A stretch of 12,513 bases of DNA from the NCBI GenBank assembly GCA_031272375.1, contig JAISTY010000048.1, forward strand, positions 1 to 12,513, read 5' to 3'. The DNA comes from Opitutaceae bacterium. GTDB lineage: Bacteria > Verrucomicrobiota > Verrucomicrobiia > Opitutales > Opitutaceae. Each line of letters begins with the position of its first letter. Positions within the stretch are counted from its first letter, which is position 1. Made by a program: the position numbers and the translations under genes. The notes beneath the pieces were generated by a model, which was not told the DNA's origin, made no database searches, and saw nothing but the letters and a program-made list of their open reading frames with translations. Below are positions 5,695 to 12,513 of this stretch, in pieces.

Positions 5695-5752
5695 AGGGCG
5701 GGGCGGGGCGGAATGTTAATATTGTCGAGTCATGAGGGCGGGGCGGGGCGGA
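5695..5752. repeat. GC-rich direct repeat, two 18-base copies
   Basis: An identical 18-base unit built from GGGCG/GGGCG tandems (AGGGCGGGGCGGGGCGGA) is present at 5695-5712 and 5735-5752, 40 bases apart. The second copy forms the last codons of the moeB-like gene (RPAPPS). The first lies just beyond its stop codon. Confidence 0.8.
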
Positions 5753-6974
5753 GGCTTTTGATATTTCGGAAGCCGTGGAGGGATCGGAGGATGGGGAGGG
5801 CTTTCAGGCTGCGGACGCCTTTGGCGCAATGAACCACGGTGGGGGCGGTTTTATCGAATTGGGCAAGAATGCGTTCGGCGTCCGGTGTGGTTAATTGGTT
5901 GAGAGGGATGTGGATGGAGTCTTGGAAGAGAGGGCCGTCGCGGAGGCGTTCCCAATTTTCGCGGACATCAATGAATTGCGGCGGCTTGTCGAGGCGGTGG
6001 AGTTCGCCGGGGGTGATTTCGTCGGTGGGGTTTGGCGTTGGGTTTAAGGGACAGGTTATTTGCGGAGGGTCGGGAGGGAGTTCGCGGATGTTTTGGTTGG
6101 CGGGGTCGGCGGGGAAGGTGAGGACGCGCGAAGTCATTGTCAGGACGTTGATGAGTAATAACTTGCCTGAAAGCGGCTCGCCGATGCCGGTGAGGACTTT
6201 GATGGCTTCGGCGGCTTGCAGGGCGCCGATGATGCCGGGGAGCACGCCGAGGACGCCGGCTTCGGCGCAGGAGGGGGCGTCTTCGGGCGGCGGCGGTTCG
6301 GGGAAGAGGCAACGGTAGGTCGGCGGCGGGGATGAGGCGGCAGGTTGTTCCGCGGCAGGTTGTCGGGTGGGCGGAGCGACGGGGCACTCCGTCGAAAACG
6401 GCGACAAGTTGCCGCACTCCAAAGGCGGGGTGACGGCAACTTGTTCGGCGGCAGGTTGTTTCGGGGCGGGACGGTGATTGAAGACGCTGATTTGGCCGGT
6501 GAAGCCTTGGATGGCGCCATAGACGAAGGGGCGGCGGGCGATGACGCAGGCATCGTTGACGAGATAGCGGGTGGCGAAGTTGTCGGAGCCGTCGAGGACG
6601 AGGTCGTGCGCGGCGACGAGTGCGAGGGCGTTGTCGCGGTTGAGGCGTTCGGCGCGGGGTTCGATGGAGATGTGGGGGTTGAGGGCGCGAAGGCGTCGGG
6701 CGGCGACGAGGGCCTTGGGTTGTCCGGCGTCGGCGGTGGTGAAGAGGATTTGGCGTTGGAGGTTGGAGACTTCAACGGCGTCAGGGTCCATGAGGGTGAT
6801 GTGTCCGACGCCGGCGGCGGCGAGGTGGAGGAGGGCGGGGGAGCCGAGTCCGCCCGCGCCGATGACGAGGACGCGGGCGCGTTTGAGGGCAACTTGTCCG
6901 GCGAGTCCGAAGCCGGGCATGACAAGCTGCCGCGCGTAGCGGGTGAGTTCGTCGGGTGTGAGAGCAGTTTCCAT
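5730..6974 (-). CDS. ThiF/MoeB/MoeZ-type adenylyltransferase-rhodanese fusion with repeat insertion
   Basis: Predicted cytosolic E1-like enzyme of 414 residues that would adenylate the C-terminal glycine of a small sulfur carrier (MoaD, ThiS or CysO type) for sulfur transfer. It shows RYARQ (12-16), the nucleotide loop GAGGLG (39-44), DPD (63-65), SNLQRQ (70-75), K87, DGSDN (128-132) and the conserved cysteine in PSCAEAGVLGVLPG (C236). A rhodanese domain follows from about 316, with active loop CAKGVR (C383-R388). ATG 6974 was preferred over a TTG five codons earlier. Oddities: about 49 residues (170-218) with QPAAEQ repeats split the usual junction between ISVFN and CYRCLFP. The first zinc cysteine is threonine (T219-Y-R-C222). 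The second CxxC is reduced to a lone C308. The rhodanese end (usual LxGGIxAW) is replaced by RPAPPS. The exact carrier protein cannot be told, so no symbol is given. It may still be active, but this is uncertain. Confidence 0.88.
   Translation of the reverse strand: METALTPDELTRYARQLVMPGFGLAGQVALKRARVLVIGAGGLGSPALLHLAAAGVGHITLMDPDAVEVSNLQRQILFTTADAGQPKALVAARRLRALNPHISIEPRAERLNRDNALALVAAHDLVLDGSDNFATRYLVNDACVIARRPFVYGAIQGFTGQISVFNHRPAPKQPAAEQVAVTPPLECGNLSPFSTECPVAPPTRQPAAEQPAASSPPPTYRCLFPEPPPPEDAPSCAEAGVLGVLPGIIGALQAAEAIKVLTGIGEPLSGKLLLINVLTMTSRVLTFPADPANQNIRELPPDPPQITCPLNPTPNPTDEITPGELHRLDKPPQFIDVRENWERLRDGPLFQDSIHIPLNQLTTPDAERILAQFDKTAPTVVHCAKGVRSLKALPILRSLHGFRNIKSLRPAPPS
6321..6467. repeat. 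in-frame repeat insertion in the moeB-like gene, with inverted and 15-base repeats
   Basis: The segment encodes the extra residues about 170-218 of the moeB-like protein. It contains GCGGCAGGTTGT three times (6337-6348, 6352-6363, 6448-6459); the first two are in 15-base tandem register, each giving PAAEQ-type residues. Between them lie an 11-base perfect inverted repeat (ACAAGTTGCCG at 6404-6414, complement at 6434-6444) and a 6-base stem (CGACGG 6377-6382, CCGTCG 6389-6394). On the - strand it reads ECGNLSPFSTEC in one frame and LWSAATCRRF in another, peptides I associate with dispersed repeats in verrucomicrobial genomes; this recollection is not proof. Confidence 0.7.
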
Positions 6975-7061
6975 TGATTGAACGGCCAAGGCGCGGTGGA
7001 AAAATCGGAAGGGCGTTTCGCGGCTGGCGGCGGGGTGTTTCGCGTTCCGGTTGGGGCGGCG

Positions 7062-11811: not shown

Positions 11812-12513
11812 ATGAAACGCCACCCGCGCATCGCCGCCTCCTTCCTCTCCCTCCTGCTCCTCCCAGCGGCTTCCGCCTCCTCCCTCTGGAACCCCGGAAC
11901 CGACGCCTCCTTCGACAACCCCGCCAACTGGTTCCCCGGCGGCGTCCCCGCCGACGGCTCCGACCTCGTCTTCGACTCCGCCTCCTCCGCCGCCCTCCGC
12001 GTCAACGGCGCCAATCACACCGTCGCCAATCTCACCTTCTCCTCAAACGTCGCCAGCACCTCCATCACCCTCGAAAACGCCGCGACCCTCACCCTCACAG
12101 GCATCGTCACCGACAACGCCTACAAAATCCTCAACACCCCCGCCGACGACCCCTACCTCGGCTCCCTCTCCGCCTCCGCCTACAACCGCCGCCAGACCCT
12201 CCGCGTCAACAGCGGCTCCACCCTCGTCCTCGACGCCTCCGCCAACACCGGCGTCCTCATCATCGAAAACAACGGCTCCACCGTCGCCTATCGCGGCAAC
12301 TCCTCCGCCGGCGGCGGACAACCCGCCGTCAACGGCTCCGTCCCCGACGCCAACGGCACGCCCATCACCCGCGTCCTCAACAAGCACATCAACGCCACCA
12401 CCCTCCTCAACACCGCCGCCGGCGACGACGCCCTTCTCCTCTTCACCGACAACGCCACCGCCGCCTCCGCCAACATCATCAACACCGGCATCGGCGCCAA
12501 CGCCACCATCCTC
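11812..12513 (+). CDS. secreted beta-strand-rich protein, autotransporter-repeat-like (3' end outside window)
   Basis: The first 234 codons of an open frame that runs off the window. MKRHPRIAASFLSLLLLPAASA is a clear signal peptide (cleavage after A22). The mature part starts SSLWNPGTDASFDNPANWFPGGVPADGSDLVF, the W..G....F..P.NW..G.P...D.V.F pattern common at the start of autotransporter-associated beta-strand (PATR-type) and related extracellular proteins. It continues with short Ser/Thr/Asn/Ala-rich strands (NAATLTLTG, GSTLVLDASANTG) typical of a parallel beta-helix. No cysteine is seen, normal for exported proteins. No catalytic motif is visible, so an enzymatic or adhesive role cannot be chosen. 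It follows the TonB receptor by 35 bases. The leader TCCTCCCTCCC lacks a Shine-Dalgarno sequence. Whether a C-terminal anchor, autotransporter barrel or PEP-CTERM tail follows is unknown. Confidence 0.8.
   Translation, partial: MKRHPRIAASFLSLLLLPAASASSLWNPGTDASFDNPANWFPGGVPADGSDLVFDSASSAALRVNGANHTVANLTFSSNVASTSITLENAATLTLTGIVTDNAYKILNTPADDPYLGSLSASAYNRRQTLRVNSGSTLVLDASANTGVLIIENNGSTVAYRGNSSAGGGQPAVNGSVPDANGTPITRVLNKHINATTLLNTAAGDDALLLFTDNATAASANIINTGIGANATIL

Follow-up and report, generated by a model that had tools for sequence, protein, structure and literature searches.

A palindromic repeat, read as a REP dimer, in frame in a loop of a MoeB-family gene of an Opitutaceae bacterium and flanked by copies of an over-represented 12-mer

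The stretch of DNA analysed (the window, 12,513 nucleotides of contig JAISTY010000048.1 from an Opitutaceae bacterium) carries on its minus strand an open reading frame whose product matches PF00899 over residues 18-293 (E 5.5e-78) and PF00581 over residues 332-413 (E 2.7e-5) by domain profile, and the best fold matches of an AlphaFold model of this protein were Uba4, ThiF and MoeB. The features of the gene and its surroundings are as follows.

5730-6989, minus strand: MoeB/ThiF-type adenylyltransferase with a C-terminal rhodanese domain, its frame open across the insert
6321-6476, minus strand: extended loop, H172-P223 (52 residues), between QISVFN and TYRC, delimited by alignment, homologue loop lengths and model
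6337-6348, minus strand: 12-mer copy ACAACCTGCCGC (QPAA)
6352-6363, minus strand: 12-mer copy ACAACCTGCCGC, 15 bp from the copy at 6337-6348
6368-6423, no strand assigned: REP dimer of two stem-loops, ~56 bp, core 21/22, from BLAST copies, alignment and pair counts
6373-6390, no strand assigned: hairpin 2, which varies among copies, with compensatory changes
6398-6415, no strand assigned: hairpin 1 (core), which varies little among copies
6433-6444, minus strand: 12-mer copy ACAAGTTGCCGT, holding one arm of an 11-base inverted repeat
6448-6459, minus strand: 12-mer copy ACAACCTGCCGC, 15 bp from the copy at 6433-6444
5978-5989 (minus strand), 6922-6933 (plus strand) and 12318-12329 (plus strand): further 12-mer copies

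With its frame open across the insert, the gene apparently tolerates the insertion, as an earlier note on this DNA had supposed. At its C-terminus (5730-5760) the protein reads SLRPAPPS, as against SLRGGIKxW in relatives, possibly by a late frameshift or by divergence.

Residues 175-223 (window 6467-6321, minus strand) split the run QISVFN from YRCLFPEPP, and the phmmer alignment to the MoeB of PDB 1jw9 breaks at residue 173 and restarts at residue 222. In an alignment of 30 proteins the insert was found in the window protein only and was absent from all 29 relatives, these being the loci cut out from among the 50 of 57 genomes that gave a match (its own included), some of the remaining matches being distant ThiF-family proteins only. 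It is therefore not a loop conserved at the same place in all orthologues, which was the finding that the earlier note had set against its idea of an insertion. Measured from N171 to TYRC, the loop is 52 residues long in the window and five residues long in 117 of the best 120 of 7998 homologues scored (one of these, P0066, was read by eye); the longer loops among these 120 belong to P0001 (Opitutaceae TAV5), P0003 and P0002 (TAV4), with 11, 14 and 20 residues respectively, and all three differ in sequence from the window insert. These lengths indicate that this clade already had an enlarged loop, so that the interruption of about 49 residues that had been described, although present as residues 175-223, corresponds to a net gain of ~32-41 residues over the closest relatives. 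The precise ends of the insertion in moeB cannot be fixed, and no MoeB match was found in the Opitutaceae MAG Nm470_bin120 (G423; hereafter bin120).

The first Cys of the CxxC motif adjoining the insertion site is absent in nine of the 30 rows (L029-L036 and L044, the window included), and the same nine also lack the second CxxC, whereas the other 21 keep both. We take these cysteines to be the zinc ligands of MoeB, and the loss of the Cys pair beside the insert is a possible reason for the tolerance. The model built by AlphaFold from 40 sequences (mean pLDDT 82, pTM 0.67) has residues 181-230 as coil with block-mean pLDDT values of 51-62, and the insert encodes a flexible and probably disordered peptide; as low pLDDT extends to residue 248, beyond the insert, it is not a feature of the insert alone. 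We also considered the six open frames of the repeat as a sign of coding selection and rejected this, as all six were open in 585 of 2000 dinucleotide shuffles of the window copy and in 704 of 2000 shuffles of the consensus.

The centre of the insert is a degenerate copy of the consensus GGGCGGGGCGACAAGTCGCCCCGTCGAAAGCGGCGACAAGTCGCCGCACTCCAAA, with its coding-strand reading within LECGNLSPFSTECPVAPP, and it is not single-copy. A BLAST search of the window's own assembly (1.46 Mb, 67.6% complete) with positions 6300-6490 gave 27 matches, including the window itself and matches to QPAA only, and the best other copy of the repeat was 90% identical over 72 bases. The core, allowing up to three mismatches, was found at 36 places in this assembly (23 forward and 13 reverse), compared with a single place (one forward, none reverse) for the core read backwards. 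These places comprise 14 with no mismatch, six with one, eight with two and eight with three, and part of the 16 with two or three mismatches may be 12-mers and not REPs. The earlier note is thus borne out in its reading of a mobile-looking palindrome inserted in frame into a gene of the MoeB family, although what is dispersed is the double hairpin of ~56 bp and not the whole segment of 147 bases (6321-6467) that had looked mobile.

Thirteen copies from the window's own assembly align to a consensus of two stem-loops, and together with three copies from bin120 they formed the set (n=16) in which pairing was assessed. Overall, 95.5% of cells were paired (96.4% in hairpin 1), and four pairs were changed on both sides, all of them among the seven pairs of hairpin 2. 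The covariation score of 0.176, compared with 0.076 after shuffling, was reached in none of 500 shuffles and exceeded that of all slid versions, and ten cells showed a double change as against 1.8 in shuffles; further pair types were not above the control in these 16 copies, as 90 of 500 shuffles equalled or exceeded the observed count. Only a few groups of related copies contribute the double changes, which therefore represent a small number of independent events. The window copy itself has broken pairs in both hairpins, and for that reason its recent movement is not demonstrated. Given the two 7-bp stems with 4-nt loops, which agree with the short palindromic stem-loop of 20-50 nt expected of a REP, a high and dispersed copy number, modest though 36 places are for a REP family, and a mostly extragenic distribution (29 of the 36 core copies were not flagged as in-gene, some of these at contig ends), we read the dispersed repeat as a REP dimer. 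CGTC/GACG stands between the hairpins in 15 of the 16 rows and CGCC in the remaining one; on the coding strand GGAGTG precedes hairpin 1 and GACG precedes hairpin 2, and among the 13 aligned copies of the own assembly none has GTAG adjoining the hairpins. Hairpin 2 has the GGAGCGAC form in the window copy and in the copies on C149 and C137 (L009 and L010) but in none of the ten other own copies, three copies being too few to interpret.

On either side of the REP dimer lie the QPAAE-coding units, which are copies of a 12-mer separate from the REP. The 15-base QPAAE repeat of the earlier note is therefore present, but as pairs of copies of an independent word and not as the ends of a mobile element, and the 11-base inverted repeat (6404-6414/6434-6444), also present, does not mark the ends of one element either, since it is shared by an arm of a REP hairpin and a flanking 12-mer copy. 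One part of the 12-mer family, ACAACC[CT]GCCGC, occurs at 264 places in the assembly, compared with four for the pattern read backwards. The strict form of the 12-mer, ACAA[GC][CT][CT]GCCGC, was found 51 times in the loci fetched from this assembly and twice backwards when REPs were masked, and its single-mismatch versions have counts of 0-5, except for two with counts of 10 and 15. A looser pattern chosen post hoc, [AG]CAA[GC][CT][CT]GCCG[CT], takes in these two variants; in own loci totalling 107,372 bases (sequence fetched for other reasons) it was found 79 times, as against 5.4 expected under an order-5 Markov model (3.3-3.6 at lower orders) and five backwards, an approximately 15-fold excess over the model, and by extrapolation there are ~1000 copies in the assembly. 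In relatives it occurs once in 169,252 bases, a set with some overlapping loci and three loci from bin120, with 2.5-2.7 expected, and in other bin120 loci twice in 38,042 bases.

We found nothing common outside the 12-mer by eye at 20 fetched sites, and the flank columns of 75 sites hold little information beyond a G at position -1. One orientation prevails at likely coding sites (29 compared with 9, by a crude score). The copies at 6922-6933 and 5978-5989 appear to have arisen by substitution, because the corresponding stretches in the MoeB of TAV5 are, by reading, of equal length. A strong genome-wide excess with few near-misses is also what characterizes uptake sequences, and by analogy the 12-mer could be an uptake-signal or chromosome-architecture word. 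We know of no DNA uptake signal outside the Neisseriaceae and Pasteurellaceae, and among the paper titles listed by a literature search none reported one in Verrucomicrobia; if it were a true uptake signal, the 12-mer would be, as far as we know, the first outside those two families, and it is the less expected part of the finding. As the REP core contains the 12-mer, and opposite-strand and coding-strand copies pair in several inserts, the two may share an origin. It is a tentative proposal, which we hold to be rather doubtful, that the insert joins a RAYT-type REP, with a core also found in other phyla, to an undescribed uptake-signal-like 12-mer, which would originate in conserved stretches through substitution and increase in number within protein linkers.

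A crude codon score, for which 3,231 codons of the window served as training set, flagged seven of the 36 core copies as in-gene; among the 20 with at most one mismatch, two were flagged and one more lies at a contig end. A candidate insert in an Ig-like protein is a full dimer (core 22/22) and so is one in HrpB, where this first copy (core 22/22) lies at a contig end with one side seen. The second HrpB insert (core 20/22), in the opposite orientation, is absent from all five relatives in an alignment that leaves out a sixth locus, L189. The HemC insert (L105; core 18/22) is absent from six of the eight relatives aligned, and the RNase R insert (L113; core 19/22) has 42 residues compared with 19 in the solved RNase R 8cdu; a further copy in RNase R, L113:1531, was rejected as an insertion on its gapless alignment to solved RNase R. 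L106, a candidate flagged as in-gene by the score, holds one 12-mer and a core of 19/22, whereas an XerD-like copy (L107, named by eye; core 18/22) is not flagged by the score and lies near the 5' end of its gene. At least one coding-strand 12-mer is found in seven of the eight inserts compared, the exception being the first HrpB copy, which is cut by the contig end. In the RNase R, HemC and XerD-like inserts an opposite-strand and a coding-strand 12-mer pair into a hairpin, as if REP-like palindromes could be formed from the word itself. Alignment confirms the inserts of HemC and RNase R, but these could instead be built from paired 12-mers, and as they are only degenerately REP-like they slightly lowered our confidence in the explanation that we prefer.

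That explanation, which we consider highly likely, is that a surface loop of MoeB has taken up in frame, and would tolerate, a multicopy REP dimer, perhaps moved by a RAYT; the family is dispersed, its pairing is kept by compensatory change, and the insert is absent from the aligned orthologues and leaves the frame open. The leading alternative involves no mobile element: slippage in a linker rich in Pro, Ala and Gln would have lengthened an ordinary disordered loop specific to this lineage. The modestly longer loops of TAV5, P0003 and TAV4, with their other sequences, and the 15-bp tandem units on both sides of the centre agree with it, as do the HemC proteins of L175 and L176, which have unrelated expansions at the very place of the HemC insert described above, and slippage is the likely origin of the QPAA-rich flanks. 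However, the centre of 56 bp matches dispersed copies, at best with the 90% identity given above, and has covarying pairs, and as an account of the whole insert we regard this alternative as improbable. Less probable still is a single MITE-like transposon that spans all 147 bases and ends in terminal inverted repeats: the 11-base inverted repeat and the locus C149, which matches over 105 bases (query 66-170) and so takes in the REP and part of its flank, would fit such an element, but none of the other 26 BLAST matches spans the segment, and part of the 12-mer family occurs at the 264 places given above, with unrelated flanks at the 20 fetched sites and little flank information at the 75. A GC-rich RNA hairpin or attenuator acting in the mRNA, without mobility, is similarly hard to credit, for although the predicted hairpins are stable (-32.5 kcal/mol for the consensus and -21.1 kcal/mol for the window copy) and pairing is kept among copies, some of these copies are intergenic and others fall in genes that are not related to one another, and no Rfam family reached its gathering score (best 19.9 compared with 42.5 bits).

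The distribution of the core bears on where the REP dimer came from. When the DNA of window 6321-6475 was compared with the 57 genomes, matches were found in six, namely 15 in the window's own genome and one weak match in each of the other five (E 1.1e-5 to 8.4e-4). Among 387 genomes of the phylum, eight have the core with at most one mismatch, the own assembly at 17 places (20 by the core-pattern count) and the seven others at 1-3 places. A 31-base pattern was found in 12 stretches of genome contigs, four in Opitutaceae bin120, seven in the Terriglobia MAG Centralia_MAG_166 and one in a Planctomycetota MAG, in a survey that may have excluded sequences from the genome of the window itself. The exact core is thus seen in Acidobacteriota and Planctomycetota MAGs (L125, L126, L128-L132 and L134); the partner hairpins of the Terriglobia copies differ, and some of those copies contain CTAC/GTAG. 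Since identity over 31 bases is unlikely to arise by chance, common origin of the REP or its transfer between phyla is likely, although mis-binned MAG contigs could also account for the core in more than one phylum.

The own assembly has three Y1_Tnp matches, and in their fetched flanks we found no core with up to four mismatches, in an assembly that is 67.6% complete. Two of the 20 Y1 loci examined in four genomes have a core nearby. One, in a planctomycete (L150), has a core with one mismatch ~0.4 kb upstream; the other, L157:1392-2013 of Centralia_MAG_166 (Acidobacteriota), is a RAYT-like ORF with an inverted REP core on each side, both matching the consensus core of the window family exactly, one ending 18 bases before the ATG and the other starting 11 bases past the stop. 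The Y1_Tnp match of this ORF is borderline (22.1 bits alone, compared with a cut-off of 23, and 23.2 bits with its neighbours), and its protein has an HYH motif. From this arrangement we infer that L157 is a RAYT-type gene with its REPs. A search with its protein at E values up to 1 found nothing in the own assembly, and bin120 yielded one weak match (E 2.7e-4). A near-identical stretch of ~20 bases is present on both sides of the L157 unit. The presence of the core in other phyla, in one of which it brackets a transposase-like gene, makes the source of the repeats testable.

Taken together with the preferred explanation, the following course of events can be proposed. In an Opitutaceae lineage that is probably near strains TAV4 and TAV5, the loop would first have lost its conserved Cys and become tolerant of length, and the ~56-bp REP dimer would then have entered it in frame. 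Arrival may have been as single-stranded DNA via a RAYT/TnpA-REP HuH transposase, the bracketed gene of the Acidobacteriota MAG being a candidate of this type, and the extra length of the loop would have come from tandem copies of the unrelated, over-represented 12-mer. The position of the loop would account for its tolerance, and it presumably confers no new biochemical function.

In-frame palindromic insertions in a verrucomicrobium have already been published. In a 2013 survey, intragenic GTAG REPs were most numerous in Opitutus terrae, some of them in frame in genes such as those of DNA ligase, uvrA and RNA helicases; insertions in flexible linkers or loops were suggested to be possibly neutral, and those in repair genes were speculated to have changed function (PMC3733652). 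Like the O. terrae REPs described there, the present repeats are short stem-loops occurring as singlets, dimers and clusters, mostly extragenic and some in frame, in the same phylum (PMC3733652), but compared by description they differ in that the own aligned copies have no GTAG by their hairpins and lie in other host genes. Likewise by description, they resemble the Rickettsia elements RPE-1, RPE-4 and RPE-6, which the same survey gives as palindromic, dispersed and in the frames of unrelated proteins, RPE-4 and RPE-6 being classed as CGTC-tagged and RPE-1 as longer (PMC3733652). In-frame insertions absent from orthologues, as in RPEs, were found here for MoeB and the second HrpB copy, so that the comparison with Rickettsia drawn in the earlier note holds; in that sense a verrucomicrobial equivalent is found here as well, but it was anticipated by the O. 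terrae cases. What is new is another verrucomicrobial genome with other host genes. The bracketing of the Y1-type ORF of Centralia_MAG_166 by inverted cores is like that of REPtrons (TnpA-REP/RAYT with cognate REPs; PMC8266576), whereas the own 67.6%-complete assembly yielded no such arrangement and the Centralia match is borderline.

The 12-mer shares with the uptake sequences of Neisseriaceae and Pasteurellaceae (PMC1939737) and with HIP1 of cyanobacteria (PMC4390886) an occurrence far above Markov expectation with no shared flanks. It differs from them in sequence and phylum, and the likeness is one of word statistics only. A search of titles and the starts of abstracts in the mostly open literature found no paper on this REP or on the 12-mer. 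In a small set picked by eye, too small to establish a preferred reading frame, variants of ECGxLSPL are encoded by the inserts of MoeB, the Ig-like protein, HrpB (first copy), RNase R, HemC and the XerD-like protein. The MoeB insert is a case, supported by alignment, in which repeat DNA has become part of a protein.
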